Source of the DNA: Sipunculus nudus
Lineage: Eukaryota > Annelida > Sipuncula > Golfingiida > Sipunculidae
Assembly: GCA_026874595.1 (NCBI GenBank)
Contig: CM049321.1
Span: 20,554,979-20,618,978 of the forward strand
DNA length: 64,000 nucleotides
Direction of reading: 5' to 3'
Shown: positions 8,641 to 55,527 of the stretch, piece after piece
Numbering within the stretch: the first letter of the stretch is position 1
Layout of the letters: every line of letters begins with the position of its first letter
Program-made: the position numbers and the translations under genes
Notes under the pieces: model-generated
What the model was told of the DNA's origin: nothing
What the model saw: only the letters and a program-made list of their open reading frames with translations
The model's database searches: none

Positions 8641-9988
8641 CCATTTTTCGGAGTTTAAAAGTCCATAAAACCTTTTCGAAGACCAAACAAAACCTCTGAG
8701 CAGCCCATGTGGTGCATTTTCTTATTGCGGTTGATATACTTGAGACCGAGAGTATATTATTTTTCTTCTTTCACAAGTTGCAGGCGTTAAACCAATCGTT
8801 AGGTGTGACAATGCATTTTACAAGTACACATGTCTCTGGGGCAGGCGTTCCGTTTCGGTCTTTATCTTTCATACAGATCCCACTATTACAGTCTGAACAA
8901 CCTGAAATTTGTGAGAATTATATAAATAATCTATGTGCAAACCCTGTGTTTCGTATTTTTTTTACTCTTTGCTCTTGGTAAACCCCAGTATCAGTCAGTG
9001 GGCCGACAAACATGTACTAGTTTCAAGCAACTGGTTCTCTTTAGTATGAGATACATGAAATCAAAATGAGTTTTTTTAAGTCAACCAAGAATCAGGCAAT
9101 TTTACTCAGATGAAACCGCCAGTAACAAAGGTACCATATTCATAACTCTCTACCTTTATTTCACACGCAAACCTTTGAACTTCAGTCCAGCAGTCTGTTG
9201 CATACGCCGGGAGAGACTGGAATCTGAAAGCAGCGCAGGTTTGACGATCAGAGTCTCTGGTTACAGTCTAATACGGTTTCATTATTTTATTATCACGATC
9301 ACTTTTAAAGTACACACAGTTAATCAGTAACAGCCATGTTTCAAATAGTGGCCCCTTTATCACTTCTGCAAATTAAAATTTGAATTCCAAGATGTAGAAA
9401 AAGGTATTTCAGGAACGGATTATCAGCTTATTTACAGTATATATTATGATAAGAGCTTATGCATATACGAAAGACAACAAAATCACACAGGAATCCCTGC
9501 CATCAATTCATACCAACTGTCTGCATTAGTACTTCTTCATGCTGGTCATGGAGATGGAAAGGTAACGTAAATTGATTATCTTGACATGCCTTACGAGTAG
9601 AGTGATAATCTAAAGTCGAACCCCACAATAACGATCACCCAGGTGACTGAGCGAAGGGGTGGTCGTATTTGAGACTCTTATATCGGTCGCCGATGTTTAA
9701 TGTATATCAGGGTGTATTTATTGCATATCTTAAATGTGAATTATAACAAAGGTTTTACTCTGCGGAGGACCCTTATTATGAATGTTTTTGTGTGTAATTT
9801 AAAAGAAAACAAAATTGTTTTAAATATTTATTCATGATAAAAAAATAATTTACATGAACACATACGTAATGCTTGACGAAAAGAAACTACTGAATGTATA
9901 TTGACCATAATACGTGGCAGAATATATGTACGAAAGACATGTGAAATATTGAAAGCACTGTAAAAGAATATTAGTGTATCAGAATATA

Positions 9989-10690
9989 TTAATTCTTCAC
10001 GAATGAGTCCAAAGTATTTTGTCTTGAGGTCACACATGTAGAGCGCACGGCACAGGCGGTCAGTTCATCTTCCAGGGCACATATCTGTTCCATCAGCTTG
10101 GTGCAGTTCTGCTGCTGCAAGAATTCCTTTAAGTAAGAAGCCCACCGTAGTGCATCGGCGAATGTGGCAGCTTTTTTTCGGCGACGCATGAGGTGAGACG
10201 TCACCAGATGTCAGCACCTGGTTGTCCTGGTGTAACTGTAAGTTTCCCCGTCTTCTGCAATTCCCCGTCTTCAGAGTTAGAATCCGTGGTGCAGAGGTCC
10301 GCGTCGATACCGGTGTTTGCTTCGGGATCATTGATGACATCAGCACAGATATCACGTCCTTTGGCGATCTCCAGCAACCGGGAGAGGGGCACATCAACCT
10401 CGTCGTAACTAGCGTCGATCTCGTCATGACGGGTATCAGCATCAGCTGGGACAATGATGCCAAGGTGAGGAAAGCAACTCTCAACGATAGACATCCTGGG
10501 CAGCGCCGGCAATTCAGCGACAAGCATCCAAAAGATTTATACTACGGGCGATCTCTTCAGCCTGCTAGCGGTATCTATCTTGCTGTGTACACGGTTCATA
10601 AGGCGCTTCCGGTGCTAAATCTTGATGTTCTGGATGATGCCTTGGTCTAGCATTTCTTGTATTGACGTGGTCTGGCAGGCACTAATGTTT
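9989..10690 (-). pseudogene. Tigger/pogo-family transposase, C-terminal half, broken
   Basis: The minus strand reads TTSIQEMLDQGIIQNIKI, a stop, then HRKRLMNRVHSKID, matching the conserved LQPLDQGII-nfK-YRkrL signature of Tigger (pogo-like, Tc1/mariner superfamily) DDE transposases. An acidic stretch follows (PEANTGIDADL, DSNSEDGEL). The C-terminus is ATFADALRWASYLKEF, then LEDELTACAV and RQNTLDSFVKN with the usual TLdsF ending, stop at 9989. At least one internal stop and one frameshift near 10,205 separate the pieces. The catalytic region is not present. It is a fossil of a cut-and-paste transposon. Confidence 0.78.
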
Positions 10691-10914
10691 TGGGACTAAT
10701 TGGCGAATTGAGTATGTCCTTCTTATTTAGTGTAACCTAAACTTTTATGGGAATAGGCAAGAACAATGAGACATAAATTACATCCATAAAATATAGGGAA
10801 AACGTTTTATGTTTGAACTAAACTAACCGTGCTGTGTGTACGGGCCCATCGTTATATGAGAATATCTCAAACTCATGACTTATTCTCATTTGAGTACACA
10901 TAGGTATGGCTTTA

Positions 10915-11060
10915 GCTAAGAACTGATAAAAATTTTGATGAGATCGCGAAAATGAAACCCTTGCTATACATTCAAAATGGAAACATCGCGAAATTTCAGC
11001 CTCGTGAATATGAAGCCAACCACAGTATATTCTTGGATCTTCGGAGGTTATATGGTTATA
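10915..11060 (-). repeat. Related 'atcgcgaaatttcagcctcg' repeat, inverted orientation
   Basis: gatcgcgaaaatgaaaccc ... ttcaaaatggaaac atcgcgaaatttcagcc is the reverse complement pattern of 58,690-58,800 (gaggctgaaatttcgcgat ... ttcattttcgctac). A dispersed repeat in two orientations. Confidence 0.6.
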
Positions 11061-11652
11061 CCAAAAAACTGTTCTGTGACGGTGCTCATGCAAACACGCT
11101 TACCATGATGTTGTTACTCTGATAGCATGAGTTTATTTTGGATCACGAGACCAAATGTGGTATTATATGTCTTTTGACCATTTATGTTCAACTTTAGAGC
11201 AATGGAGACATATATCATGTTTTTATCAAGAACTTAATAAATTACAGAAAATAAGTGACAAACAAATTTGCAATGACATAATATGTCATTTGCTGTTGGT
11301 TTGTTGGTCTGTCCATGCTCTGGAATTCTCAGGAATTTAATTAGTCTCGATTGGGATAATTGGATGGAAGGATTTATAAAGTATCGGTGTCAGGAGGTAA
11401 ATCAAAATAAATTTACATATTTTAAAGGAAACTGGAATGTTTTAATCCCCAAACATCCGCGCTTTAGACGAGCTAATTTTAACAAGAAACACTCACAAAT
11501 CAACCCAAAAAAATAATTATTTAATTTTCCCCCACTCCATTGAAGCATCAACTTGAAGTAAAATTCGAGAAACATTTAGTCCTAAACGGAAACATGCAAG
11601 TAAATATATAAATATTGCTCTCTTGTACATTTCTCTTACATTCTTTACATTA

Positions 11653-11820
11653 AGAGAAATCTAAATTAAAAACGGATGATGTGCTATTTGTGTAATAATT
11701 TAACGTTCATGTGCTTTAAATATATAATATGATAGATAGAGAAATCTAAATTAAAAACGGATGGTGTGCTATTTGTGTAATAATTTGACGTTCATGTGCT
11801 TTAAATATATAATACGATAG
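11653..11820. repeat. 85-bp tandem duplication
   Basis: agagaaatctaaattaaaaa... to ...tttaaatatataata occurs twice back to back (starts 11,653 and 11,738) with three or four mismatches. Confidence 0.9.
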
Positions 11821-12055
11821 GATCACGCATTTGATGCATCCGTCAAAGGTAAAAACAAAACTAGTTACAGAAGATAAAAATTGATGTTAGTGTGATAAGT
11901 TAAAACCATCCGTTTGTTTCTTTTGTTTAATACAAAAAGTAATTATGTTTTTCTTCTTCTATTTTGTAACAAATTTAGGTAAAATCATTTATTTTAACTT
12001 TATTTCAGTTTTCTCTAATGAAAAAAAAATATCGATTATAAAAATATTAATACTG

Positions 12056-12056
<1 letters not shown>

Positions 12057-12120
<64 letters not shown>

Positions 12121-12122
12121 TA
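12057..12122. repeat. (TA)n microsatellite
   Basis: About 32 units, no gene adjacent. Confidence 0.95.
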
Positions 12123-12799
12123 GCTATATGTAAACGAGGTTCTTCATCTCTCAGGGTCAAGTAAAATAAAAAACAGACAATATTCAACCAAAGTTAGAGA
12201 CACTGGATCTTTTCATGAAATGTATTTAACCCATTGGCATGTTTGATCGAAACAATATAAATCAAACAACTTTTATACACCTTACAGACTGGCAGGGAAT
12301 TCGTCTCGATGTATGCAATATGGAATAGCCAGAGAGAGTAGACGATGAACTCCGGGTGGGCTCAATACTTAAGGAAACTTTATTTGCTTGGTTTACTGGG
12401 ACCCCAGCATATTTTAAGGTATATCAGTATCATTATTTAAACCAAAATCCTTCAGACAATAATGAATCGTCACAATGTTGATTTTTTAAATATTACATTA
12501 TCAGGACTAGTATTCGTCTAAGACAAACTTTAATTTTTTATCATGCAGTTATTATTCAATAACTGTAATCATATAATCATGTATTCAGTTATTTACAAAA
12601 CACCCATGAAATGGACTTCGTTTGGATATCAGGTCATACTTACTGGAAACAAAGGTTGTGACTTATTTGTTAGCAGCAGGATTTAAACAAATAATAACCA
12701 GGCTGGTTGCTTAAAGTATATTAACAGCTAGAAAGTATACGCAAATATTGTGGAAATGTTTCGATATTGTATATATGTGTAACTACTTGCATTACATAG

Positions 12800-12930
12800 A
12801 ATATAAAACAACCATATTTCCAAGATATCGTTCACGGTCATGTATGAGGCGTATTTTATCTGAGCAAAATTACAACCCATGTACATCCAAAAGCAGTCAT
12901 AGTGGGTTGCGGCTGTCTCATGCTGAAAAT
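12800..12930 (-). pseudogene. Decayed copy of the F/G upstream exon
   Basis: The minus-strand sequence aligns with 56940-56800, including the acceptor attttcag, the ACCCAC/ATGGGTTG core and the segment encoding SYMTVNDILEI (F: RYITVNDVLKI). Stops and frame changes break the rest. No TM exon was seen downstream. Confidence 0.5.
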
Positions 12931-13074
12931 GTAAGAGAAAAATAAAAAGAGCTCACAAACTTTATTCAATGAGTACTCTAATAAGGAAAATAAAAATTGA
13001 ATGCGCACTGTAACATTATTTTTTTGCAGGTAAAAGTGGTTAATAGCATCTCACTCAACATTTACCGAGGGGTA

Positions 13075-13432
13075 ACATGCGCGCGGCAGAAACTGTCAAA
13101 CGTGTCAAACGCATTCGTTTGCCGCGCGGCCAGTCCTTTTCCATTTGAGCGTTTTTATGCGTTTTCCGCGCGGCAATCGCATGCCTTTCTCACATTGCTG
13201 AACAAACTCAAAGATGCGCTGATACGGGGAAACCCCACATGTGACGCCATTTGAATTTGAATTCCCATGCGTTTACCGCGCACTGCTGGTTTCCAAAACT
13301 GACGCGTGCGTTTGCCACGCGGCAATCGCATACTTGGAAATAGCAAATGACTTTTTAACTGGTTGGATTTTCGCAGCGCGGCAGTCGCGCGGCAAACGCT
13401 TGCAAAATGCGTACAAGGAAAAACACCCTTAG
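13075..13432. mobile_element. CpG-rich element with repeated GCGCGGCAAACGC motifs
   Basis: A compact GC-rich island in AT-rich surroundings. The motif gcgttt(g/a)ccgcgcg and its complement (gcgcggcaaacgc) occur about six times in both orientations, the pattern of subterminal transposase-binding repeats in MITEs. Clear terminal repeats were not defined. Confidence 0.5.
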
Positions 13433-13499
13433 GGGCGGCAAGTTTGTTTTGTGCATCCCCTCTGGATCTGAAAAAAAAGTTTTATATCTGTATTATACT

Positions 13500-13860
13500 A
13501 TCATAGGTGTGACTAATTTCATAATTCCAAGACCAGACAATGTCATGATAGCGTATGGTAATGTATAAATATCGGCTGACAGTATAAATGTTATAAGTAT
13601 GTTCCTAGTTTGTTTCTATATATATTATAGCATGAATAAAAACATATTTCAAATAAATAATTGTCGTCAGTATCGAATAAATAGTACAACTAATCAGAAT
13701 ATCAGTATATATATTTGTATAGAAATATTTGTTGTTGGTGTTGATAGAATAACACATTTGAGGCTTATTTTTTATTATCAGCCAGATGGTATTATCTGTA
13801 TTGCAAACATGACAAAAACAATTGAATAATGGTTTCACTGAAATCCCGTTATTTCATCCA
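13500..13860. repeat. Third copy of the B/C 3' flank
   Basis: atcataggtgtgactaat... and ...aacacatttgaggcttatt match 25,040-25,270 and 38,520-38,800, the sequence just downstream of the B and C stop codons. No tail exon follows here, so it is an orphan fragment of the gene unit. Confidence 0.6.
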
Positions 13861-13959
13861 TTATATGGTATATAGTGTTGAAAACAGGACAAAAACGGTT
13901 GTATAATAGTTTTACTGAAATCCCATTATTTTATCCATTATATGGTATTTAGTCGACAC

Positions 13960-14960
13960 GTGACACTATGATTATAATGATTTACACTTTTAATGATTTT
14001 ACATTCAACATTCCGATAGTTATTATATATAAGAATCATTTATCTTCACGTAGCTTAACACCAGCCAAATAAAAATGTGTTACATTATAGTGTATCGAGT
14101 CAGTATTTGCGTCTTATCAATGGAATGTGTTTTTATATACAATTAATGGCAACCTAGTTTGCTGGAAACTTTGTATGATCTTCCAAGGACGATAAACATG
14201 GCAATATATGCTTATTGTGTGACTATTCACCTTGCTATCACCTTACTCATGCTGTTCTAGAGTTTAACTAGTTAGATATGATTTGTACAATAGGCACCCT
14301 GATGACAGATAAAAACACTTATCTATGTACACCTATTACACAGATAAAATACAGGACGAACTACAACACATCCAATGAATAGGGCTCAGATAAGGTATAG
14401 TTTGTGATGGAAATATCTTGAAACATCTTGGATAGAAGAGCGATCAACCGAGCACCGTCCTTTTAATATAAAATACCACGAGATATTCTTCATCAATAAA
14501 TATGTACAGCTTATATATGCAGCTTTATGTATATTATATACATTTTTAAACAGAATATTTACAGAAATACATTTAAAATATAAAAACGGGTTTCCTGCAC
14601 TTGAAATATGGGCATCAAACAGATTGTTTGCCTGCCAACTTGGCTATCTGATATAAGTCATTATAGCTATGCACTAACCATGGTGCCTTTACTTAGGGAT
14701 TTTTTATGAAGTGATATCAGTTTGTCTCGAGCATAACAAGTGACATACATTAAAAAAAAAACAATTTCACTTAAAACTAATGTCCCAGAAAGGTTGAGAC
14801 CACTCTGATATCTATCTTATTCAGATCCTAGTAGTTCCAATTATTGAAATATGATTATTTAAATATGTGTTCCATTTACCATTATTTGAACCGATAAGTT
14901 TGATATCACAAACATACAATTTTCAAAATGCTTTCATATTGTGACCCGGTTATATATCTA
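13960..14960. repeat. Intergenic block shared four times (copy 1)
   Basis: Matches 59,520-60,560, and more distantly 31,480-32,360 and 46,190-47,170. Markers are atctTCACgtAgCTTAACACcagc, a paired tcgagtcagtat segment, and gtttgtctcgagcataacaag. No coding potential seen. Probably intergenic sequence carried along with the receptor genes. Confidence 0.7.
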
Positions 14961-25551: not shown

Positions 25552-25633
25552 CTACGGTCTGGAGCCAGAAAACGAAACACGCCCTGAACTGTATGTGGCA
25601 GCTTTGGTGGCTGTGAAACTACCGGAAGATTCC
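25552..25633 (-). CDS. Gene B terminal exon: cytoplasmic tail
   Basis: 82 nt, phase 2 in. It encodes 26 residues (ESSGSFTATKAATYSSG, then RVSFSGSRP) and ends in a double stop, TAG TAA. The tail is rich in Ser/Thr with one Tyr. No ITIM, ITAM or dileucine motif is evident. Acceptor gattacag. The same double stop closes the C copy at 38998. Confidence 0.82.
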
Positions 25634-26527
25634 CTGTAATCGTATAATAAAATTATTATAAAACATTCGTGCACCAAAGTACATCGATTTTCATCCTTTT
25701 CCCGTCATAATGTGTATCTATTTTTTTATATACTAGACTTGTATATCTTAAATAAATTTAATGGAAATTTAGAAAATTCCAAAACATAGTGTGCAGGTAT
25801 GGACTAAATTGTAAACGAATTAATAATAAGTTGTATTCACTATTACCTCTCAGATCCATCGCAGATGTCATATTTTAACGTAAGTGCCATATGTGTCATC
25901 CCGAAAATTAGCGACAAACAGGTGAAACCCCATAAAATTCTAACCAGAACCAACTGATTAGAACTGTTGTCAGTTTTATCTGAAATAAGAAATTTAAACT
26001 GTAATATTTAATATATATCATGATAAATGTATCTGCATAAACAGAGACAAGTGAACTTTCCAGCAGCAGTGTTCTTGGTTTACCGTTACATCTTTAAATC
26101 GTACAATAATAAAAATGTAGTTATCTAGGTTAAGGAAGTTTGGAATTAAAAGGCGAATGATGAATCGAAGGAAAAGTGAGGTTTGTATTAAATGTAAATG
26201 TATGTCACATAGCCCTCCGTTTAACATAAATCAAAGGCCTCATTCAACTGGTTATGAATACATCCTTACACAACAAATAACACCAACAGTCTTATACGTA
26301 CTCATTACAAAGGTTATCGGAAGTCACAAACACCGCCGAATGTCAAATATTTATTTACAAAATTCTAGAAATTAGGTAAATTACACGAGAATTGCTTTAT
26401 CAGGTCCTGTGTTTTGCAATTTATGTACATACCATGTGAAGGTGTTAAGCCGCTTAATTCCTTACTTCCAACAGTTGTTCCTTGGCAATCATATTTTCTT
26501 AGATTATCTGTATATATTTTAACACAC

Positions 26528-26604
<77 letters not shown>

Positions 26605-28716
26605 TTAACACACATGACTTGAAAAAAAAATACCACCTTAAACTTGTAATTCTTCAGCATAACTTAATTGGCAAGAAAACAAACATCTAGACGGATTAAG
26701 AACGGGTATTGTTAACGGACACAGACAGAGACACAGAAGTATGCTTACATGCAAAACAAATAAAATCATATTTGCTATTACAGCCAACAGATTTCCATGA
26801 GAGATTATTTCCTTGCATGAAAGCGACAGCGCATTTTCCTTTCGACCATCCATCCCACTTGCTGAAGCTCGGTGTTATGCTGCCTGAAAATGTGTCACTC
26901 TTATAATATTTGGGATAGTAAATGCGATAGATTTACGATGATGGTCAATATATAAAATATAAATAATCTTTGAATGTTCTTATTCAAATCACTTGATTAT
27001 ATTATAACCTATACAATAAATGTAATATGCCCGCCGTAACCGTTGATTATGGTGTATAGGCAACACTGTATTCTTTGCTTAAAATACTTTGAATGGGTTC
27101 ATACAGTTTGTTTTATATGACACCAATGCCGCTTCCTCTTGTAAAATAGTAGATTGGTATTGCTATTAATTTGATGATGCAATAATTACTGAACAATATT
27201 TTTATCCCACACAATATAGGAATTCAGGGAGTATTCACCGAAAAAATTGGATATCAGACAACTGGATACAACATTATCTTCTGTAAGGTTTACAAATGTT
27301 TATTAAAAGACTTGGCGTGCTAATTGTACTAAATGAACCTTCCTACAATTAGTACTTACACGTTAGCACAACAGCTTACCGTTGTTTGGGTGTTTAAAAA
27401 CCCAGGAACCTCTCTTAAGCCCAACCCACACTTCTGAACAGTTCTGGGTTTTCAATGCTTCTATCACTATGGTTGCACTGGATATGGAGAGCGTCTTATT
27501 CCTGACCTTGCACAAGTTGTAAGCGCTGAACCAGTCAGTTGGAATACAGTTTATGGTTAAGCATGACCCAGGTGTAGAGCTCAGATTCTTTCTGGTATCG
27601 TTTATACATATTCCATTATTACATCTTGCACATCCTGAAAACAGGAACAGCGAATATCTTTCGAGTATTTGATTTGATGAAGGCGGCGAAGCTTACACTT
27701 TTAGCAGAAATACAGGAAACCTCCACATATATCAGTATGAGAGTTCTTTACTTGAAGTTGTTATTTATGTAGATTAAGGAGATAGTTTGGTGTAATTATT
27801 TTTGTTATTTGTATTAATTTGGTTATAACATAACCTTTGTGTTCACATGCAAAACCTTTCAGTTGACCATAGCAGTCGGTTGCATAAACGGCGCCAGATC
27901 TCACAGAAGCGCAGACTTGACCACTTTGTTCTCTAATCACAGTTTCGTCTGTAATTATTTAATCATAATGACCCAACAAATACTACAAAGCTGATAAAGT
28001 GACTTGTTTAGACTTAAATAAATATCGCTATCTAATATTGCCTTTTAATATTCTCCTATTTCATTAGGTTTGTAATTCTGCTGACCCTTTGACTATCTCA
28101 AAGTGAATTGTTTCCGACACTATCTAACGGTTTCGTCATAACACATTACTTTTCCAAAGGTTTCATTAATCAAATGGTTCTTTTCGTTTACACGACAATG
28201 ACAAGATCATCCTCGTAAGTGGCCTGAATAACTTCTTACGCACTAAATTTGCAAGACTGACCACCCCTAACCGAGAATTCCATACTAATTAATCGATAAC
28301 TGGTGAAATGCATTTAATAGGCTATTTTCCCAGTAAGTGGGCTTTAATATAAAAACCAATCATTAAAAGAAGTTTACTCACATAAATCAGTATCTGTAGT
28401 GTTAGCTAGTTTTGAACGAGTTCGCCTGTACAATTGTCTACACGCGATTATTAGTTATTTCCAAATTTACACATCTTACATATCTAAGATAAAAGAAATC
28501 GCTCACTTGATTCCCGCCCATCAGTCCACTTCCAAGTGTCCATATTGATTAGTTCCAGGCCTAGCCATAGGGATGACAAATTGTATTGATGCATTGCCTC
28601 TATGATTACTTCTTCGTGTTGGCCATTTAGATGTATAGGTAACACAAGCCGTTTCTCCTGACATGCCATGCGAGCATGATGATAATCAGTTGTGTTTCCG
28701 TGAAACCATGCATCAC
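25552..28716 (-). CDS. Gene B: two-CTLD type I membrane receptor-like protein (5' end missing)
   Basis: Six exons on the minus strand, each with AG acceptor and GT donor and compatible phases: 28716-28507 (CTLD1a), 27948-27835 (CTLD1b), 27634-27380 (CTLD2a), 26883-26749 (CTLD2b), 25979-25847 (TM), 25633-25552 (tail and stop). Joined, they give about 308 residues with no stop. The order is CTLD1, CTLD2, a short linker, one hydrophobic helix and a 26-residue tail ending in TAG TAA. The expected topology is type I, with lectin-like domains outside the cell. Neither CTLD has an EPN, QPD or WND motif, so classical calcium-dependent sugar binding is not indicated; the ligand is unknown. The signal-peptide exon should lie upstream (above 28,716) but I could not place it. 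Paralogues A' and E have one. An endocytic or immune recognition role is only an inference from the family. Confidence 0.85.
25847..25979 (-). CDS. Gene B transmembrane exon
   Basis: 133 nt, phase 1 in and phase 2 out. A short linker (KTDNSSNQ) leads into a single hydrophobic helix, LVLVRILWGFTCLSLIFGM, followed by THMALTLKYDICDGSER. The C copy at 39315-39447 conserves length, both splice phases and the LIFGM core. The TM exons at 56548-56732 and 61237-61467 look like more distant relatives. Confidence 0.82.
26530..26601. repeat. (TA)n microsatellite
   Basis: In the gene B CTLD2b-TM intron; counterpart in gene C at 39,999. Confidence 0.95.
26749..26883 (-). CDS. Gene B exon CTLD2b
   Basis: 135 nt, phase 1/1. 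It encodes the second half of CTLD2: SFSKWDGWSKGKCAVAF, GNNLSWKSVGC and KYDFICFA, with the cysteine spacing of a CTLD C-terminus. The donor is GTAAGC after GCAT. Splicing straight to the TM exon restores TAT (Tyr) and keeps the frame open. Confidence 0.84.
27380..27634 (-). CDS. Gene B exon CTLD2a
   Basis: 255 nt, phase 1/1. It begins with a cysteine-rich hinge (CARCNNGICIND), then SCLTINC, DWFSAYNLCKVRNKTLS (the CTLD alpha-helix 1 region) and the core EVWVGLKRGSWVFKHPNN. NDT, NLS, NKT and NCS are possible N-glycosylation sites. Acceptor ttttcag, donor GTAAGC. Confidence 0.88.
27835..27948 (-). CDS. Gene B exon CTLD1b
   Basis: 114 nt, phase 1/1. It supplies the C-terminal cysteines of CTLD1: VCASVRSG, then YATDCYGQLKGFACEHK. 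Only about 14 residues separate WKWTDG (exon 1a) from the first cysteine here, so the long-loop region that binds calcium and sugar in canonical CTLDs is nearly absent. The donor GTTATG is weak but is used in the same phase as the stronger GTAAAG of gene C. Confidence 0.82.
28507..28716 (-). CDS. Gene B exon CTLD1a
   Basis: 210 nt, phase 1 in and phase 1 out. It encodes the first half of a C-type-lectin-like fold: WFHGN, a helix-like stretch beginning YHHARMACQEK, the core SLWLGLELI corresponding to the CTLD WIGL motif, and WKWTDG. The acceptor is ...tccag and the donor is GTGAGC. It is directly comparable to the C copy at 43418-43627. Confidence 0.88.
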
Positions 28717-33011: not shown

Positions 33012-33429
33012 TTCACCTCTGCCTAGTTTTTGATATGGAATATTGAAAACCCATATACATACCATGTGTTACTGAAAAGATGGCTTCATTATATATTGTG
33101 ACTCTGGTAAGAAGTTTTGTATTGATACAATTGTTGATCGGGAATAATAATATTCAAAGTAGTATGTAAAATTTAAAAACAAAAGCATATCATCAGTTTT
33201 ATGACCAACATGTCTGTAATTGTTGAAGAATTCCAATGTTGTTCTAATTTTAAATGTAAATATGCTAGGTTAAGTTATGCAAAGATATGTTTATGAGTTT
33301 TCAGAGAGCTTAAAAGCACATTATATTGATTACATAGAAAACGAAGACATTAATGGTTAGACAAAGCATACACATATAACTGTAAAATGATATTCGAGGT
33401 TACTGCACATGTGCATAATCATTTTCAAA

Positions 33430-34562
33430 ACAGAGAAAATTATATTTCCTGTCGCACTCCACAACCTTTTATGGGCGTTTCCTTTCTCGTCCAAAAACAA
33501 TGGCGCACTTTCCTTTCAAATTGCCTACTACTTCATAGAAGCTCGGCACCACTTTAATTATCAATCACTTTTTATTTGTATGTTGAATACAAATTTTATT
33601 TGAATTTACATATTCCAAAAATGTATGACTTTATTGTATCTGTAGTATAAAAAACACATTCACGTTAATAATTGTGTAAAATCCTAAAAATCATATCATG
33701 TATATCAAAGATACACAATGATAGTATATTTTGAGAAAAAGAAAAGTAAGGTGGATCAGGTGTATATGTAATAACCTATCGCATGTATACATATATCTAT
33801 GTTATGTATAATGACCTATGACACAGTTTCTACACAATATTACTATTGCAATTATACTGTTATCATAACAGTGTAATGAGTAAGGAATAAATGAATTATA
33901 AGCGGACTCATAATGACGGAATCAATTTTCATTAACAATTTTTAACTTAGTCGATAGATAAATAATACCTATAACGCGGATGATAACATTCCCAGGCTCT
34001 TTCTAAAGACCAACCCCTTCCACATCAGTATGCCTGTTTCATAGCATCTGTTATTTATGCTAAACTTGACTCTCCTGATTGTTTGCCTTTCACGGGTTTT
34101 GGGCCCTATACAAACCGGATGGAGTGCAATTTAAAGATACACAGGTTTCTGCATTAAGCGTTCCGTGATCGTCTATATCTATCATACATAATTTTTATTA
34201 CCATCTGAACAACCTAAAGTATAAAAATATGAGTACTCTTCAGTATGGGGGTTCGCGCGCCTTTCAACAGGCGTAAACACAGTTCAATCATTGTTAATAT
34301 ATTCTATAGCAATAATATTAATATATTCATACAACTTAAAGCATACACATATGGGTATTCTCCTGTATGATGGTACACGCGTTTTTTTTTTGCACAAGTG
34401 TAAACATCGTTCAATTATGGTTAATATATTCTTAAGCAATAATATCATCGAAGTAGCATATCATTTAATATCATCTTTTTGTATACCTATTGTTGTTCGT
34501 ATATTTGAGATGCATTAAAAAATGTATATTTTTCACCTTTGCTTTCAATTGTGAATTCATCT
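33430..34562 (-). pseudogene. Gene H: truncated CTLD receptor copy at the duplication junction
   Basis: Three recognisable pieces: CTLD2b-like at about 33565-33430 (PSFYEVVGNLKGKCAIVFG, then a stop, then ECDRKYNFLCF), CTLD2a start at about 34213-34050 (acceptor tttag, then CSDGNK with a cysteine lost and early frameshift), and the last part of CTLD1b at 34562-34500. The CTLD1b exon is cut at about 34,563, where sequence matching 22,717 onward begins. H is the counterpart of gene E in the duplicated unit. Confidence 0.62.
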
Positions 34563-38261: not shown

Positions 38262-39996
38262 CTGTATATGCATTATGTGTATTTGTTACCTATCACTAAT
38301 ATTATGACCAAAAGTATATGTTCAGGATGATTCCTGAAGTGTTTGCTTTGTTGTATTATTATTTATTTTGCCACTATTTTGATCTAAAACATTCTAATTA
38401 CTCCTGTACACGAGTTGAATAAACGTATATCGAGCGATCAGTGGTTCAAAACAAGAACATAGAGCGCACCAGGTTTCCTTACTGTGCAACCTCGCATTTC
38501 GAGGTGTTATAAGTTTTGTTCTATACCACCATAGGTGTAACTAATTCCATAATTCCAAGGACATACCGTTCGTTTCAGCTTAAAGCAATTTACAAATATC
38601 AGTTGGCAGTAAAAATTAAATAAATATGTTCCCAATTTGTTATACATATTCTTGATGTTAAAAAACACTTCTTCTTGAAAACCCAACAGAATTTTCGACT
38701 AAAAAGTAAAACTAATTCGAATATATAATATATACCTCTCCCTTGTGTTAATAGAATAAGAATAATATTTGAGGCTTATTTGTTTATAATTAGCCATATT
38801 GTTAGTAGTTATAGTTGTTAATATATATATATATAATTCAGATTTCATAGACGTCACACAGAAAACAATTGTTTCCCATTTCCCATATCCGAAAATAAGT
38901 TATTTTATCGTCTCACACGTACGATTAGAGGTTTGATCCATATGCCAGATGGTCTGGGCGATTATCACCAGATCATTTGCCCTCCAGTGTGAGCTTACTA
39001 CGGTCTGGTGCCAGAACACGAAACACGCCCTGAACTGTATGTTGCAACTCCGGTGGCTGACAAATTACCGGAAGATTCCCTGTAATCGTAGTATCATATT
39101 ATTATAGAATATTCGTGCACTTAACTACATGGAGTTTCATCCTTTTCACGCTATAATGTGTATCTGTCTTTTTTTTTCATTTACCAGACCTTTATATCTT
39201 AACTATATCTCCACGGACTCAGTAATAACGGAATGTTAGAAAAAATCCAAGACATAGTTTGCAGGTGAGGATTAAATTGTAATCGACTTAATAATCATTT
39301 GTAACGACTGTTACCTCTCAGATCCATCACAGATGTGATATTTAAACGTCAGTGCCAACTGACTCATCCCGAAAATAAGCAACATACATGTTGCAACCCA
39401 TACAATTTTAAACAAAATCGACTGATAAGAACTGGTGTCAATCTTATCTGAAATTTAAAAAAAATATTTTAGTAAATATTAAGATAAATGTATTTACATT
39501 GAAAGAGACAAGTGAAATTTCCAGCAGCAGTATTCTGCGTTTACCATTACATCTTTAACTCGTACAATAATAAAAGTAGTAAGCTAAGGTAGCTTGGAAT
39601 GAAAAAGCGAATGATTAAACAAAGGAAATATTCGGTATGTATTAATTGTAAACATCGTATGTGGCATACCCCACCGATTTAACCATAGGCCTCATTCAAC
39701 TGGCTAACAATGTAACATGTGCACTCAATTAGAACCATTCCACAACAAATGACACCAACAGCCTTCTACATACTTATTACAAATGTTATCGGAAGTGAAG
39801 AATACCGCCGATTGTCGATCTCTTCACGAAATTCTAGTACAGATTAAGAAATTACTCGACAATAGCTCTTCAGATCCTGTGTTTTGTACACGGTGGATTT
39901 TATGTACATACCATGTGTAGGTGTTAAGCCGCTTAGTTCTTTACTTCCAACAGTTGTTCCTTGGCAATTATATTGTTCCTAAGTATCTGTATATAT

Positions 39997-39998
<2 letters not shown>

Positions 39999-40069
<71 letters not shown>
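39999..40069. repeat. (TA)n microsatellite
   Basis: In the gene C CTLD2b-TM intron. Confidence 0.95.
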
Positions 40070-40072
<3 letters not shown>

Positions 40073-40823
40073 TATTAAACACACAGTACTTTAAAAGTAC
40101 CACCATAAACGTGTAGTCCTCTCAGCATGACTTCATTGGTAAGTAAACTAACAAATAGACGGTTAGGTCCGGATATTGTTAATGGACACAGACAGAGACA
40201 CAAGAGTATGCTTACATGCAAAACAAACAAAATCGTATGTGCTATTACAGCCAATAGATTTCCATGAGAGATGTTTTCCTTGAATGGAAGCGACAGCGCA
40301 TTTTCCTTCGGACGTACCATTCCATTTGCTGAAGCTCGGTCTAATGCTGCCTGAAAAGGTGTTACTCTTATATTGGTTACAGATAATAACTACGAGAGAT
40401 TTTCAATCATGGTCAATATATAAAATATGAATTATTTTAGAATTTTGCCTATTCAAATCGCTTGATTATCTTATAAACTATACAATAAATGTATATGCCC
40501 TCCGTAACTTGTAATTGTGGTATATAGGCAACACTGAAATCTTTGCTTAAAATACTGTGAATGGGTTCATACAGTTTGTTATATATGACACAAATGGTGC
40601 TTCATGTTGTAAAATAATATATTGGTATTGTTATCAATTTGTTGATGCAATAATTACTGAACAAAATCTTAATCCCACAAAATAAATGAATCAAGGGAGT
40701 ATTTTCCAAATAGATTTGATTTCATACAAATGCAACTGAATACGACATCATCTTCCGATTTTTTTATTATAAAAGTGAGCAGGTGCCTAGAATTAGTATT
40801 TACACGTGAGCACAACAGCTTAC

Positions 40824-41077
40824 CGTTGTTCGGGTGCTTAAAAACCCAGGAACCTCTCTTAAGCCCAACCCACACCTCTGAACAGTTCTCGGTTTTCATC
40901 ACATCTGTTACTGCGGTTGAATTGGATACGGAGAGCGTCTTATTTCTGACCTTGCACAAGTTGTAAGCGGTGAACCCGTCAGTTCGGATACAGTTTATAG
41001 TCAAACATGACCTAGACGCTGACGTCAGCTTTTTACTAGTATCATTTATACATATTCCATAATGCATCTTGCACATC
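40824..41077 (-). pseudogene. Gene C exon CTLD2a with -1 frameshift
   Basis: The rest of the exon is open and highly similar to B (GICINDT, SCLTINC, YNLCKVRNKTLS, EVWVGLKRGSWVFKHPNN). One nucleotide is missing between the acceptor and GICIND, so the phase-1 entry no longer reaches the CTLD frame. An alternative acceptor could rescue it but none is obvious. Confidence 0.75.
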
Positions 41078-41257
41078 CTGAAGTACAACATGAAGAGCGA
41101 ATAACTTTTGAGTATCTGATTTCATGCGGGCACGGCGGACACTTTAAGTAGAAATACAGCGAACCTCCAAAATGATCAATTTACGAGTTAGTTTACTTTG
41201 ACATATTTTCATGTAAGTGGATTAAGTTGATTATTTGGTGTTATTTTATAACTTTAC

Positions 41258-41372
41258 CTTTGTTGTCACATGCAAAGCCTTCGACTTGAACATCACATTC
41301 GGTTGCATACACGTGTCCATTCCTCACAACAGCGCAGTCATGACGATAATTTTTTTCTAACGACAGACTCTT
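41258..41372 (-). pseudogene. Gene C exon CTLD1b with +1 frameshift
   Basis: Compared with B, one extra base lies in the run of seven A. With a base removed the exon reads RKNYRHDCAVV, then YATECDVQVEGFACDNK, a normal CTLD1b; as written it meets TGA nine codons in. Its first 41 nt (41332-41372) are copied four more times upstream in the intron. Confidence 0.78.
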
Positions 41373-42716
41373 CTGGAATTATTTTATCAAAATAAACCAA
41401 TGATGACCACTAGGCGGATAGAGGGCCTTGTTTAGACTTAAACATTACAAATACCGCCATCCAGTATTGCAATTTTATAATACTCTTTTTACTTTTTCAG
41501 AGATTTGTTAATATAAATGTTCCTTTCCACGATAATAATACAACCATGATCGTAGGTACCCGGAATAGAATCGTCGGCACTGGAGACAGAGTATCCTTAT
41601 CATGACTTTCATTAGCGCAGTCATGACGACATTTTTACTCTAACGACGGACTCTTCTGGAATTATTTTATCAAAATGACCTAATAAAGACCATCAGGCGG
41701 ATAGAGGGCCTTGTTTAGACTTAAACATTACAAATACCGCTATCCAATATTGCCATTTGATATTACTGTCTTTACTTTTTCAAATGTTTGTAAATTTAAA
41801 GGTTCCTTTCCACGATAATGACAAAACCATAATCGTAGGTACCCTGAATAGAATCTTCGGTAAAAAAGACAGAGTATCCTTATCATGACTTTCATCAGCG
41901 CAGTCATGACGATTTTTTTACTCTAAGAACAGACTCTTCCGGAATTATTTAATGAAAATGACCTAATACAGACCTCCAGGCGGAAAAAGGGACTTGTTTA
42001 GACTTAAACATTACAAATACAGCTATCCAATATTGCCATCTGATATTACTGTCTTTACTTTTTCAAAGGTTTGTTGATTTAAAAGGTTCCTTTCCACGAT
42101 AATGACAAAACCATAATCGTAGGTACCCTGAATAGAATCTTCGGTAAAAAAGACAGAGTATCCTTATCATGACTTTCATCAGCGCAGTCATGACAATTTT
42201 TTTACTCTAAGAACAGACTCTTCCGGAATTATTTAATGAAAATGACCTAATACAGACCTCCAGGCGGATAAAGGGACTTGTTTAGACTTAAACATTACAA
42301 ATACAGCTATCCAATATTGCCATCTGATATTACTGTCTTTACTTTTTCAAAGGTTTGTTGATTTAAAAGGTTCCTTTCCACGATAATGACAAAACCATAA
42401 TCGTAGGTACCCTGAATAGAATCTTCGTTATAAAAGACAGAGTATCCTTATCATGACTTTCATCAGCGCAGTCATGACGATTTTTTTTACTCTAACGACA
42501 GACTCTTCTGGAATTATTTTATCAAAATGACCTAATGAAGACCTCAAGGCGGATAAAGGGACTTTTTTAGACTTAAACATTACAAATACAGCTATCCAAT
42601 ATTGTCATTTCGTATTACTGTCTTTAATTTTTCAAAGGTTTGTTAATTTAAAGGTTCCTTTCCACGATAATGACAAAACCATAATTGTAGGTATCCTGAA
42701 TAGAATCTTTGGCATC
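41332..42716 (-). repeat. 284-bp intronic tandem array (about 4.9 copies) carrying a splice acceptor and exon start
   Basis: Units begin at gcgcagtcatgac at 41,332, 41,615, 41,898, 42,182 and 42,466 (period 283-284). Each contains the CTLD1b acceptor (ttccag on the minus strand) and the first roughly 41 nt of that exon followed by intron. Units 3 and 4 are nearly identical. In gene B the same intron has a single copy. Confidence 0.9.
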
Positions 42717-43016
42717 TTTGTTGATTGATTATTCATTGCTCAACATGATGAACTCAATTCTTTGAGTTATTTATGTGTCAGCCCCTTTAAGTGAAGTTTT
42801 AACAGTTTGGAGCATAACATGACCCATGGCCCTGACACGAGCCTGAATACGATGCGTCGGGGTCAATCACAAGGGACGCAGAATCATCTTTTTTTAAATC
42901 GTCTTCATTTACTTTGCCAACGCGAAGATTGTTAACAAAAGCAAGCTTAAGAAATGATAAGAGGTATCAGAAATGTACGATTCTTTCAAGATTAGGAAAG
43001 ACTGAGTTCCATGGCG

Positions 43017-43018
<2 letters not shown>

Positions 43019-43090
<72 letters not shown>
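43019..43090. repeat. (TA)n microsatellite left of the palindrome
   Basis: TA tract in the gene C CTLD1 intron region, interrupted by ACATATA. Confidence 0.95.
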
Positions 43091-43123
43091 GATGTATGAG
43101 TAGCCATGCTGGTTCATTGTTTT

Positions 43124-43299
43124 ATAGATGGAAAGGGTATACACAGAAAAGTGGTTCACTGCCAGTAGGATTCGAACCAACAATCTTCCGATTTCCGGTG
43201 CGGCTGCCAAGTGGACTAAGACAGCCGCACCGGAAATCGGAAGATCGTGGGTTCGAATCCCACTGTTAGTGAACCACTTTTCTGTGTATACCCTTTCCA

Positions 43300-43304
<5 letters not shown>
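43124..43304. mobile_element. 181-bp palindrome of a tRNA-like element inside (TA)n
   Basis: Left arm 43,124-43,206 and right arm 43,222-43,304 are nearly perfect reverse complements around a 15-nt spacer. Each arm has a pol III B-box-like core (ggttcgaatcc). The centre plus right arm reads GCCAAGTGGACTAAG ... GTGGGTTCGAATCCCAC, like the D and T arms of a tRNA-Leu/Ser, without acceptor-stem pairing. Both sides abut (TA)n tracts. Confidence 0.82.

Positions 43305-43351
<47 letters not shown>
43302..43351. repeat. (TA)n microsatellite right of the palindrome
   Basis: TA tract beginning at the last base of the inverted arm. Confidence 0.95.
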
Positions 43352-43355
<4 letters not shown>

Positions 43356-45399
43356 GGTAATTAAATAAGTATGGCCCAGTCAATTCATTTCCATGTAAGA
43401 TAAAAGAAACAGCTCACCTGAATCCCTGCCATCAATCCACTTCCAAGTGTCCGTATTGATTAATTCCAGTGCAAGCCAGAGAGATGACAGATTGTATTGA
43501 TTCATTGCCTCGGTGATTACTTGTTCGTGTTGGTCATTGAGATGTATAGGTAAAACAAGTTGTTTCTGCTGGCATGCAATGCGAGCATGGTGATAATCAG
43601 ATTTATTTCCATGAAACATTGGATCCCCTGGGCGAAAATATAACGTATATGCATAAATACCTTTTTACCCTTTCCGTTTTAATTATAAACCCTGCATGTA
43701 GGAGCTGAAAGAAGCAATGTACAACTGTATTCTACAATCAACCGTCGGCCATTTAGATATAGGGGGCTTTTCAATTAGATTCATATGTAAACGTTAAGCA
43801 ATGGTTGAACAATTACACCCGCCTTCCATGAACAGTCTAAATCAGGCTAAAGGCTCGCCTCCAAAATATTTGTTTATTATTAATAAGTTTATAATAGTTG
43901 CCCATGCACAAGAATATTAACTCTATTTGGTCACAAAACATACGAATGGAGTCGGCATTCCTTATTTTTTTTTGTATATTCACAACATAAGCTTTTGTTT
44001 ATTTTTGCCTGGAATAAATATTAATAGTGCATTGTATCAAGATATTTAATGGATTTTTGAAATTTATGCACGAATATATTATTCCCACAAGGGTTTCCGA
44101 ATTCAAATATAGTATCAGTCACTTTTTACATCATATGTCTAATACATCTGGAATCCATCAGCATCTTCAATTGGCTATCTTTTACTCTCAAGTAAAAAAA
44201 AGTTTTAAAAGAGTTTTGAATATCAAAATCAGCTAAAAAATGTAATAAACTTGTTGAACTCATGCATCACCATATTACAACAGCGGGAATATACAACCTC
44301 AGATCAGAGTATAAGGTTTTACATCCGATGCCCATTACACTTGGCAGAATGTGTTATTGTCCCATGATTCGTAAAGCCTTTTTTATTGATACAAGAGCAT
44401 ATTTTATGAATTGTATTTGCATTTGCTTTAAAAATCAAATGTTTCATACTCTGCATTTAACTACAAAAGCTTCTGTTAGCGCTGCATTAAAAACGAAATG
44501 CAAATGCAACATTTTCAAATGTAAATTCATTTCAACCGAACCTTCATGCCAACCGTAATTTTTATTGTCACTCCCGTGTGTTGAGCTTTGCTTGACAAGT
44601 GGATCGATTTCAGTTGCTCTGACTTCATGTCACAGCTTCTTGTAACTTGTGTAATCTTGCCTCAGATTGCAACGTCATGTTGATTGCCCGCTTGAATATT
44701 TCATGGATTAAAGCTGCAGGGTGATGTTTTTGGCTGATTACAGGGTTGAAACTATACTTTAATGGCATTTTACACGCAGGGGTTCATTTATATGGGCTTT
44801 GTCGTTAGTCATTCGTGTTAATCATTGTGACTCGACCGATTATTGAGACTTTTTACGTTTATTATTATACTCCATTCTTATATTTTGTCCACAGGTAAAG
44901 TTGTAACCTTCTTTTCTGTAGAGACTTTGTTAAGTTATTTCTTTCTCCCGTACCGAACATCGATTGCCTGAATCGATGGTGTCGATGTTGAAACTAAAGG
45001 ACATACGTTTCATGTCATGGTCTAAATTATATTTTTTTTTAGAAACCGCCTTCTGTGGTTTTTATAGGTGGAAGAGCTCATAGGCGTTATATTATGGGTT
45101 TAAACCTTGGCAGATGAGCGGTAAGATGTTTTGCGCGCGGCCCCCACCCAAGGTGATCCCTCTGAAGGCCTATCATGGGAACTGTGCCCAAATGTTGTAC
45201 ACGGGGCTTAGTAAGCAATCGCATGACTTGAGGTTATTGGTTTCAGCACTGATGTCCGTAGGGGGTGGGGGTGGGGGGGGGGGGGGGATGGGATTTCGCA
45301 TATTTTGTGCCTTGCGGGCTTTGTTAGTCGCCGTTGGTGAGTCGACCATGTTTATGAGTTCCAATCTCTGTGATATGAATTGTGGGGTAGCCATCATCT

Positions 45400-45800
45400 G
45401 GCTGGCTTGGTATCTGTAATTTCTGTACTCATGGCATTCCCGGTGTGACCTTGAGTGGTCACTTTTTCAGTTTCAACATTTTCTGGCACTGGCGAATATA
45501 TTTTCTGATTGTGTGCTATGGGCCTGCTTGGATACTGCACTCTCAGCTGTGATGCCTCAATCGGAAACACTTGCCACATTATTAGTACCTCTGGTCTTTA
45601 TGGATTGATAGTTTGGTTCCTGCATTCCGGGCTGCTGTAGTCAATGGTAGTCTGGAGTAATTAAAGTAAATCTCTTGTAACGGTACTTTCATAGCGACAG
45701 GGGTTCCGTGTCTTGCCTGGCTCTCATGGCACTTGTGCTCGGCCTTCAGTGAGTATTAGGGAAGACGTAAAGTTATCCCTGGTCTTGGCTGCTCTATTCT
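45400..45800 (-). pseudogene. Retroelement gag-like zinc-knuckle region, copy 2
   Basis: Nucleotide-level copy of 30,570-31,030 within the large duplication, more decayed: the knuckle region is shortened and out of frame, although the flanks (cggtactttcatagcgacag) are conserved. Confidence 0.45.
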
Positions 45801-46189
45801 TTTAAATAATTTTTAAAGACGTATTTGTCGTTTAAGTATATTGGGGTGAATACCCTAAATGACGTAAATGACTCTGGGGAACTCATAGATGTGATTCTGT
45901 TGTGAACATTAACTTACGACTGTAATACATGTGTGAGTGACGGATAACATTTGTACGGCTTGATGAAGGTAATCACTTTGAAGAGGAATATATGTGTGCA
46001 TTTTGTGATTTTGTCTTGGGGCTTATTATGCATTTATTTTGTAAATGGATGATGTTATTATATTTTTATGAACTTGGCTGGACGGTCCAGTATTAGGATG
46101 GGTCGAGCCATCGTGTGATCCTGTTTAAAATACCATACATGCGATACCATATACTTTAAACTAAGTATTCGAATCAGTATTATTGCAAA

Positions 46190-47170
46190 ATCTTACTTGA
46201 CAGATTCACTGAAGACTCAATTATCTTCATGAAGCTTAACACCAGCAAAATATATATGTTTCCCTTCACACCCTATCGAGTCAGTATTTTTGTTGTATCA
46301 GCGGGGGTGCTTTTATATACATTAATGGCATCCTGGTTCGGTTTCATCATTATTGTTGTGCGTCTGGGTTGAGTATTTTATTTTTTTCCTGGTCTATCCC
46401 ACACTCTTATATTGTAGTCTTATCGATCAGTGTGTGTAACTCGGACCCTAAACGGGCAGAGATTAACTAATTTTATAGGATAAATACTGAACAACAAGCC
46501 TGAGGAGACGATTGATTAGTATGCTGTTTCGCAGAGTGGATGTGGGTCTGGGTTGAGTGTTTTATTTTTCTCCTGGTCTATCCCACACTTTAACTGGCCG
46601 GATATCAATTGTACAATAGAAACCCTGTTGATGGATATTTTAAGCCACTTATTTATGTACATATGTTACACTGATATAATATAATACGACCTAAATCAGA
46701 TCCGATGAAGAGGGGGCATCAAACATATAGACTCAGAAAGGGAAACATATCTGAAGTTTCTTTGATAGAAATCAATCATTTTAATATATAATGATACGAG
46801 ACATTCTTCAAATATAAATATATAAAGCTAACATATGCCGCATGGTGTATATTAAGTCATTTTGGAACAGAGACTTTACAAAAATACAACAAGAATATAA
46901 AAAAAATTGTGATCCTGCACTTAAAACCACAGATTGTTTAAACTGCTAATCTGTCTCCATAATATTTGCCATTACGGCTATGCAGTAACTGTGGTACCTT
47001 AGGGCGTTAGAACGATGATAGTTTGTCATGAACACAGCAAGTGCTCCTCTTATTAAAAATACTATTTTTCTTAATCAAATGTACCTAAACGATTGGGAAT
47101 AGTAATTCTATGTTGAAAATATGCTCCCCTTATACAAGTTCATACATGCTTGTTTTCAAAAGATCAGTGT
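46190..47170. repeat. Intergenic block shared four times (copy 3)
   Basis: Unit Y copy 2 counterpart. Contains a local duplication of a 'ggtctgggttgagt...tcctggtctatcccacact' segment at about 46,360 and 46,548. Confidence 0.65.
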
Positions 47171-48115: not shown

Positions 48116-48584
48116 AATAACAGTGAATACATTTATTAGGATGAAATTGTCCTGCAATTTGTCCTGTGATTTGGAATATTGAAAAAAGATCATATATATA
48201 CCATGTGTAATTGAAAAGATGGATTCATTATATATTGCGTCACTAGTAAGAGGTTTTGTATAGACACCACTTGATGATTTTGAATAATTATATTAAGGGT
48301 TTTCTGTAAAATTGCAAAACAAATAACAACAGTTTTATGACTAACGTGTCGGTAATTGTTAAAGAATCCCTTTTTTTGTTCTAAATTTAAATGTAAATAT
48401 GCAAGGTTAAGTAATGCAAAGATATGTTTATGAGTTTTCAGAGAGCATAAATGCACAGTATATTCATGGCTTGAATATACAGTCTACACTTAAAACGAAG
48501 ACATTAATGGTAACACAAAGCATACGAATATAGCTTTAAAATATATATGAGGTTTCTGCACATGTGCATACTCATATTCAACAC

Positions 48585-50629
48585 AGAGAATTATATTTTC
48601 TGTCGCACTCCATAACCTTTCATGAGATTTAGCTTTCTCGTTTAAAAGCAATGGCACACCTACCTTTCAAATGGCCTTCCAGTTTGTAGAAGCTCAGCAT
48701 CAGTTTTATGATCAATCAATTTATTATTTGTATGTTGAATGCAAATTTTATTTCAATTGAGATATTCTAAAAATGCCCGACTTTATAATATTTGTAATAT
48801 ATAATTACATTCACGTTAATAAGTGTGAATAGTCCTTAATATCATATCATGTATATCAAAGATATACAAGGATAGTGTATTTTGAGAAAAACAAAAGTAA
48901 GTTCGATTAGGTGTATATGTTATACCCTATCGCATGTATACATGCATCTTTGTTTTTTTTTTTTTTTATATAATGACATATGTCGCAGTTTCTACACACT
49001 ATTACGATTGCAATAATGCTATTATCATAACAGTGTAATGAGTTAGGAGTAAATGAATTATATAAGGACACATAAAGACGAAATCAATTTTGTTTCCAAT
49101 GAGCTGACCATTTCATTAACAACTTTCAACTTAGTCGATAGATAAGTAATACCTATAAATGAGCTGACCATCACGCAGATGATCAAATGCAAAGGCTCTT
49201 TTTGAGGACCAACCCCTCCCACTTTAATATGCCTGTTTCATAGCAACTCTTATTTATGCTAAACTCGACTTGTCTGATTGTTGGCCTTACAATAGTTGTT
49301 GACGCTATACCATGCGCATGGAGTGCAGTTTAAAGATACACCATTTTCTGCATTCGGCGTTCCGTGATCTTCTATATCTTTCAAACACCTTTCAGTAATA
49401 CATACTGAACAATCTTAAATATAAAAAAATGAGTATTCTCGAGTATAAGGGTTTGCTCGCTTTTGGATCAGCGTCAACACAGTATCATTTTCTGATAAGG
49501 TCATTGTTACTCGTATATGTGAGAAACAAAAGCATTTTAAAACTGTATATTCAACACCATTGCTTTCACATATGAAGCCTTCTACATAAAGATGACACTA
49601 TGTTAAAAACACTGATGAACGCCCGACTGCAGCACAAGCCCTACGACTAAAGTTTCTTAGCACATTTTTTACCAAAATGGTTTAGCTACAATTGTGTCCA
49701 TTGCGTTCTAGAAAATAAAATCAGTTTATACAAGGCCGTGTTTTATTAGCTGTCTCCTGTATTTCCCATAATGAGAGAAAATTAATTATTTATATATGCT
49801 CTTTTTCACGATTCGTAGTTCAAGTTAATATCCTTCCTGCATTAGGTTAAACATTTCACATATAATATTTCTTTAATGACTTTTTTCTGGCAAAAAAAGC
49901 TTTTTAATAGTAATGCAAAAATACTTAGTGAAAACAAAACAAGTGGTTATCATGTGAGTGAAATGCCGATATAACACCAATTAAAAACAGAAAAAAATAT
50001 AGTTTAGCATACAAATCCATTTAAGCAGATTTCTTTTCAAAATACTATATGATAGGTAAAATCATATTGATCTGACGATAAAAGAACTCAAAGTCAATTA
50101 GTCCAAGCAAAACGAATGACAGCTTATTTTGTTTTATAACCCTAATAATTATCTCGATGCATAGTTATGTACGTTTGTTGAGCTGACACGCTTGACAGGC
50201 GTCTTGATAATTGATTGCGTAACCATGAACACTGGCCTGGCTTGAAAAAGTAACCAAACCAATTTTTTGCCATTTTGGTATAAAGTACACAGCAAGAAAA
50301 ATTCCAGTCCCATTTGTTCCTATGCCGACAGAGCTCTAACCGTTGTAACTTCACACTATCTCGTTAAACACATTCTGAAGACTAGTTTGAGACTTCCTAA
50401 ACCGTCGCACATAATCTTAAAACATGCATCATTATTGGAGTATTGGAACTTTGTATACCAATTAGATTTAGTCAAAACAAAGTCGTATTCTATGGATATA
50501 TCATTGCACAGGATATGAAAAACAAAATAAATAAGTAATAAAATAATGTTAAAGTTTACCTAACATAAATGCTTCACTCTCTGGGCACTGCAAAAAGGTG
50601 AACAGCAGCCAGACAGATATGAACCCCAT
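48585..50629 (-). pseudogene. Gene E: decayed two-CTLD receptor
   Basis: Exons: signal 50629-50560, CTLD1a-like 50239-50165, CTLD1b 49655-49558, CTLD2a about 49413-49260, CTLD2b about 48715-48585. The lesions are several. The CTLD1a acceptor cag of A' reads caa here, so any AG shifts by one base. CTLD1b has an in-frame TAG (49598-49600) where A' has a serine codon. CTLD2a starts well (CSVCITERCLKDIEDHGT, WYSVNNYCKANNQT) but hits TAG at 49259-49261. CTLD2b has a stop in place of the middle region (LKGRCAIAFKRES then stop). Order and orientation match gene B, so this is a pseudogene of the same architecture. Confidence 0.68.
50560..50629 (-). CDS. Signal-peptide exon of gene E
   Basis: 70 nt, identical in structure to the A' exon: MGFISVWLLFTFLQCPESE, phase-1 donor GTAAAC. 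The leucine-to-glutamine change next to the cysteine falls at the end of the hydrophobic core. About 100 bp of 5' flank upstream of the ATG is nearly identical to that of A', including cctttactgtcaagaaggtgg on the plus strand. Confidence 0.75.
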
Positions 50630-54065: not shown

Positions 54066-54121
54066 TGATAATACATTCGTAACCGGGAACACTTGTATTG
54101 AAGGGAAGTACAAATGTACAC

Positions 54122-54123
<2 letters not shown>

Positions 54124-54174
<51 letters not shown>
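54124..54174. repeat. (TA)n microsatellite
   Basis: Marks the right end of unit X copy 2; the sequence beyond it is unrelated to unit X. Confidence 0.95.
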
Positions 54175-54176
<2 letters not shown>

Positions 54177-54275
54177 CTTACAGCTACGATGCGGAGCTCA
54201 GACCGATGTTGCGGGAAGCGACCACTCTCCGAACCTCTCACGGACAAATAAGGACAAATGGCGATAAAAGAGGTG

Positions 54276-54321
54276 AGGACCCTGAGGCCTTGATCGTTGT
54301 GCAATTGTACGCATGCGTTAA
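54276..54321. repeat. 45-bp direct repeat flanking the gypsy fragment (left)
   Basis: gaccctgaggccttgatc(g/t)ttgtgcaattgtacgcatgcgtta occurs here and at about 55,154-55,200, one mismatch. Between them lie the gypsy integrase fragment and a doubled 'cagagtatagtgaaacgtg' segment (54,361 and 54,619). Confidence 0.75.
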
Positions 54322-55152: not shown

Positions 55153-55153
55153 G

Positions 55154-55430: not shown

Positions 55431-55433
<3 letters not shown>

Positions 55434-55518: not shown

Positions 55519-55525
<7 letters not shown>

Positions 55526-55527
55526 CA

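Follow-up and report, generated by a model that had tools for sequence, protein, structure and literature searches.

The cluster of lectin-like exons examined here raises two questions: does its open copy form a real gene, and what kind of protein would that gene encode? The stretch analysed (the window) covers 64,000 nucleotides, C16:20554979-20618978, of a 1.43-Gb animal genome, in which a search for C1q gave 41 matches at E <=1e-10. A first-pass annotation had read a gene with two lectin domains (CTLDs) through six exons; we refer to this gene as copy A. As detailed below, copy A is best explained as a seven-exon gene of a tandem family, encoding a type I glycoprotein with two CTLDs that is probably a calcium-independent recognition receptor.

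Gene model of copy A

All six exons were recovered at the positions given in the first-pass annotation (E1-E6, Table 1). AG precedes each of E1-E6 and GT follows each of E1-E5; the joined exons contain no internal stop and end with TAG TAA, the first stop lying at 25554-25552. The exon phases read earlier, 1-1-1-1-1-2, are correct if the series starts with a signal exon. That exon had been expected 5' of position 28,716, and it was found there (E0, Table 1). Copy A therewith comprises 7 exons on the minus strand and 1005 nt including both stops, and encodes a type I protein of 333 residues. A TATA-like word is present at 48-50 nt before the start in all six copies checked.

The search for E0 took two steps. 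Nine members of the family were scanned for ATG frames that lie 5' of E1, contain a hydrophobic stretch and end at a phase-1 donor. The scan returned one exon common to the members M1, M3 and M4, about 2.8 kb upstream of E1, and an individual candidate for each of G7, L059 and L058; none was listed for A or B. Alignment of the upstream regions placed the exon of M1, M3 and M4 in copy A. The phase-1 donor of E0 is GTAACA in copy A and GTAAGA in M1, M3, M4 and B, so that copy A has lost the G at +5; this probably explains why its E0 was absent from the scan. A signal-peptide-like frame near 30309, picked out by eye, was rejected, as it was not listed by the scan. Frames near 30.6-31.0 kb, which recur beside other copies, were likewise rejected as part of the gene: they look like a retroelement, with a zinc-knuckle-like pattern visible by eye.

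Table 1. Features of copy A and of the other family copies, in window coordinates
Feature	Position	Strand	Basis or remark
TATA-like box of copy A, ATATAAAA	31607..31614	-	41-48 nt 5' of ATG
E0, signal peptide MKGNIYFRLMLSFVKIIGSLMLLS	31566-31494	-	by alignment; conserved with M1, M3, M4
E1, first part of CTLD1, WLGL motif	28716-28507	-	exon join and Pfam
E2, second part of CTLD1	27948-27835	-	exon join and Pfam
E3, cysteine hinge and first part of CTLD2	27634-27380	-	exon join and Pfam
E4, second part of CTLD2	26883-26749	-	exon join and Pfam
E5, transmembrane helix	25979-25847	-	residues 272-290 of 333, mean hydropathy 2.04
E6, last 26 tail residues, then TAG TAA	25633-25549	-	exon join
Copy B	38995..46269	-	7/7 exons recognisable, broken
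Copy C	53136..59608	-	E0-E3 recognisable, broken in E1
TM-exon relics of copy C	56593-56727 and 61339-61458	-	
Copy D	48581..50224	-	E1-E4 with stops
Copy E	33424..34191	-	relic of E3-E4
Copy F	8654..14079	-	E0-E3 recognisable, broken
Copy G	266..967	-	relic of E1-E2 at window edge

Domains, cysteines and tail of the predicted protein

The joined protein was compared with Pfam profiles. Both halves matched Lectin_C (PF00059) above the cut-off of 22.6 bits (CTLD1, 34.3 bits; CTLD2, 26.9 bits), the profile by which they had been proposed for checking, and no other Pfam domain in the protein exceeded the cut-off. With the signal exon first, two CTLDs following and one helix near the C-terminus, the single-pass type I layout claimed earlier is supported.

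Each CTLD contains the four canonical cysteines, and the cysteines of the hinge and of the CTLDs are all invariant in four members; which CTLD cysteines pair as disulphides is taken from the CTLD fold. The motifs EPN, QPD and WND, already reported missing from copy A, are absent from all five members checked. Copy A has 10 N-glycosylation sequons, compared with a mean of 3.7 in shuffled sequences.

The tail is short and serine-rich. It had been described as 26 residues long; E6 does contribute 26, but about ten further residues come from E5. The tails of A, M3 and G7 are free of ITIM, YxxPhi and acidic dileucine patterns, and any signal would therefore have to pass through a partner. Close to the outer end of the helix lies a basic residue, which is Arg in A and M3 and Lys in B and M7; it may fit such partner signalling or may simply sit at the membrane edge. 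The tail of A also contains RVSF (exon at window 25555-25633), which is kept in M3, reads RVSC in B and is absent from G7. RVSF has the form of a PP1-docking motif, but four residues may arise by chance.

Copies within the window and along contig C16

The window contains at least seven copies (A-G, Table 1), the number that the first-pass annotation had given as a minimum. No open copy other than A was found in it, the rest being broken, stop-bearing or partial. In copy B, for example, GTG stands in place of ATG, the frame is broken at E2, and E3 carries a 1-nt deletion. Copy B also includes a tandem array (window 41330-42709; 4.9 copies of a 284-bp unit), and the unit includes the 5' end of exon 2 and its acceptor region. 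The same copy also carries an inverted repeat (window 43123-43305) in the intron that separates E1 from E2, with 84-nt arms that are 94% complementary and sequence that looks tRNA-like by eye.

The window sits inside an array of about 480 kb on C16. Searching the genome with the joined protein gave at least 128 matches; at least 20 of these, located between 20.50 and 20.99 Mb, include E3. We modelled 12 members (A, B, M1-M7, G7, L058 and L059); the models omit E0 of M2, M5 and M7, E6 of M7 and the 3' end of M6. An intact frame running from the ATG to the stop was found in three of the 12, namely A, M3 and G7. The earlier claim that no member of the cluster but A is open holds within the window but not cluster-wide, as M3 and G7 are open outside it. 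A and M3 differ at 26 of 1005 nt, and A and G7 share 43% identity in each CTLD. The CTLD exons of G7 have the same lengths as those of A (E1-E4, 210/114/255/135 nt); G7 differs in having an additional stem exon and in the GC donor that follows its E4.

The remaining members are less complete. M1 and M4 are open through E0-E4 with a damaged TM exon, and the same damage is common to M2 and M5. For L058, E0-E4 are open and no TM exon was identified; a hydropathy scan beyond E4 gave unconfirmed candidate frames. M6 is open through E1-E4 and has no ATG at the aligned start. B, M2, M5 and M7 are broken. For L059, the start of E2 was not found and the model consists of E1 only.

Open copies with a damaged TM exon raise the possibility that the family consists mainly of soluble lectins and that the membrane form is one variant. 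The exon structure would allow this, since the boundaries of E1-E4 are all of the same phase and exon skipping therefore keeps the frame. The TM exon and the tail are nevertheless kept in both complete relatives of A, the close M3 and the distant G7, and we consider a mainly soluble family unlikely.

A second, diverged cluster is located at C16:1180547-1252990, with matches of 34-36% identity about 8.1 kb apart. One locus in it (L072, C16:1.19 Mb) matches E1-E4 in an unchanged order, the E2 match being interrupted by a stop.

Constraint between clades and gene conversion

A chance join of unrelated frames was rejected as an explanation for copy A because G7, at 43% identity, keeps the CTLD exon lengths and because Ka/Ks is below 1. 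Over E1-E4, Ka/Ks was 0.41 for A-M6 and 0.33 for A-G7. Per-exon values ranged from 0.21 to 0.54; the bootstrap intervals reached or passed 1 for E2 in all four pairs, for E4 in four of six and for E1 in one of six, and never for E3. For the youngest pair, A-M3, Ka/Ks was 0.79 over E1-E4 and 0.74 over the full CDS, and exon divergence was about equal to intron divergence. At the level of substitutions, the family is thus constrained between clades, and the pair A-M3 shows little constraint.

Copy A could, then, be a duplicate that died or fell silent not long ago, while a gene such as M3 stayed live, and it would read open only on account of its youth. The weaker donor of its signal exon, the A-M3 ratio of 0.79 with exons diverging like introns, and the many broken copies nearby would all agree with such a fate. 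Set against them are the seven exons of copy A, which carry neither a stop nor a frame shift, and the constraint on the family overall. We regard a dead duplicate as possible but doubtful, and prefer to read copy A as a protein-coding gene.

In E3, A and M3 differ at 15 positions. Eleven of these fall at nucleotides 157-203; among the close copies only M3 has them, and M7 matches it at all 11. Exon 3 of M3 (C16:20730123-20729869, outside the window) thus carries a gene-conversion-like tract, and part of the A-M3 divergence is due to gene conversion in this exon.

Relationship to known C-type lectins

We compared profiles of the two CTLDs with PDB sequences. The CTLD1 profile matched 50 sequences at E <=0.01, with the yolk-sac IgY receptor first, followed by KLRB1, PLA2R and KLRF1 chains; the CTLD2 profile matched 9 sequences, with CD69 first. 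KLRB1, KLRF1 and CD69, which are among the best matches, resemble copy A in having a CTLD without the classical calcium site. NK-type C-type-lectin-like receptors are type II proteins of vertebrates with one CTLD, whereas copy A encodes a type I protein with two. Their likeness to copy A is probably convergent, and we read the profile matches as pointing to CTLDs that lost the calcium site rather than to kinship with NK receptors.

The mannose receptor family (MRC1, PLA2R, IgY receptor) is likewise type I with several CTLDs, and two of its members, PLA2R and the IgY receptor, appear among the CTLD1 matches. As these are long multi-CTLD receptors, the exons of copy A might be a fragment of a longer gene of the mannose-receptor type. 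We rejected this highly improbable explanation, because the signal exon, together with the TATA-like box, lies directly 5' of the CTLD exons and G7 has the same two-CTLD layout. In the description of PMC12321717, mannose receptors possess a cysteine-rich domain, an FNII domain and eight CTLDs; copy A differs in having two CTLDs and, by Pfam, nothing else above the cut-off.

The first-pass annotation had found no named receptor with the architecture of copy A. Such an architecture is, however, on record: transcripts for C-type lectins with two CTLDs and one TM segment are described from the sea slug Elysia, annotated as homologues of C-type mannose receptor 2 or versican (PMC7663992). Going by that published description, to which the likeness is confined, copy A is a further example of a layout already known from sea slugs. 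Bivalves are described as having large lineage-specific repertoires of C-type lectins (PMC10140915), and those with a C-terminal TM segment and those with degenerate motifs are covered in a review (PMC12842671). Among the lectins it lists, ScCTL-1 and CgCLec-HTM share a C-terminal membrane anchor with copy A, and degenerate calcium motifs are found among bivalve C-type lectins; unlike the two-CTLD copy A, ScCTL-1 is listed there with four CRDs and CgCLec-HTM as single-domain. No published ortholog of copy A was found in the open-access literature searched.

Two-CTLD genes on herpesvirus-like elements

A genome search with Lectin_C gave at least 151 matches, including at least 57 long intronless frames (329-441 aa; chosen by frame length) on many chromosomes. 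In a 7-kb locus with 43-55% G+C (L073, C5:66536000-66543000), a frame with two CARD stretches accompanies two CTLD frames, one with two Lectin_C stretches and the other with one above the threshold; a FLYWCH/MULE transposase frame is also present.

The herpesvirus terminase PF02499 matched the genome 60 times, 53 times at E <1e-20. Of the 57 listed CTLD frames, 49 are followed on the same strand by a PF02499 match at a distance of 90-125 kb, in 29 of the 49 at 108-110 kb; the other 8 have no such partner. Conversely, 47 of the 60 PF02499 matches have a CTLD-frame partner, compared with a mean of 0.06 and a maximum of 1 for shuffled positions. Pairing at such a spacing indicates that the CTLD frames belong to herpesvirus-like elements; the genome carries about 50 such terminase-bearing copies, of which one 7-kb piece (L073) was read. 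Fish provide a known case of herpesvirus-transposon fusion, Teratorn (PMC5601938, PMC10175614), and a malacoherpesvirus-like integration is described from lancelets (PMC12373286).

Models built from the host family were used to compare the two element proteins of L073 with 30 other host lectin loci. The CTLD2 model scored the element proteins at 37.9 and 29.1 bits and the best host locus at 14.6. With the CTLD1 model one element protein scored 20.8 bits against 14.8 for the best host locus, and the other was not among the best 30 matches. The 30 control loci are the top Lectin_C matches and are largely single-domain lectins, so that the control falls short of all two-CTLD genes. Compared directly, an element CTLD protein and copy A are weakly similar (23% identity, E 5e-6), and a genome search with the element protein gave only element-type long frames among the 109 matches listed.

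A speculative and rather unlikely reading is an arms race. The elements would have captured an intronless gene of such a receptor, which would now lie next to a CARD gene and might act as a decoy or mimic of the host receptor; in response, the host cluster would diversify by duplication and gene conversion.

Probable function of copy A

We propose that the product of copy A would run from a signal peptide through CTLD1, the cysteine hinge, CTLD2 and one TM helix to the serine-rich tail. If expressed, it would most likely stand on the cell surface, and its CTLDs, which have no classical calcium site, would bind a protein or a glycan there. Duplication has enlarged the tandem family, and many of its copies are decaying.

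Such a receptor may serve in immunity, as the first-pass annotation had supposed. It may instead be a membrane receptor with another task, such as recognition of gametes, symbionts or food particles, or matrix assembly. CTLDs serve many roles, and nothing here ties copy A to immunity or to a ligand; a non-immune task is accordingly a real possibility. Copy turnover, the gene-conversion tract and the relatives on herpesvirus-like elements are more usual for defence genes, which argues weakly against it.

For this receptor family, in which calcium motifs are absent from both lectin domains, copy A provides a clean gene model, signal exon included. Despite the absence of these motifs from both CTLDs, the family is constrained between clades. 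Should the two-CTLD genes on the elements prove to be linked to it, the host family and the elements would offer a directly testable host-virus receptor pair.
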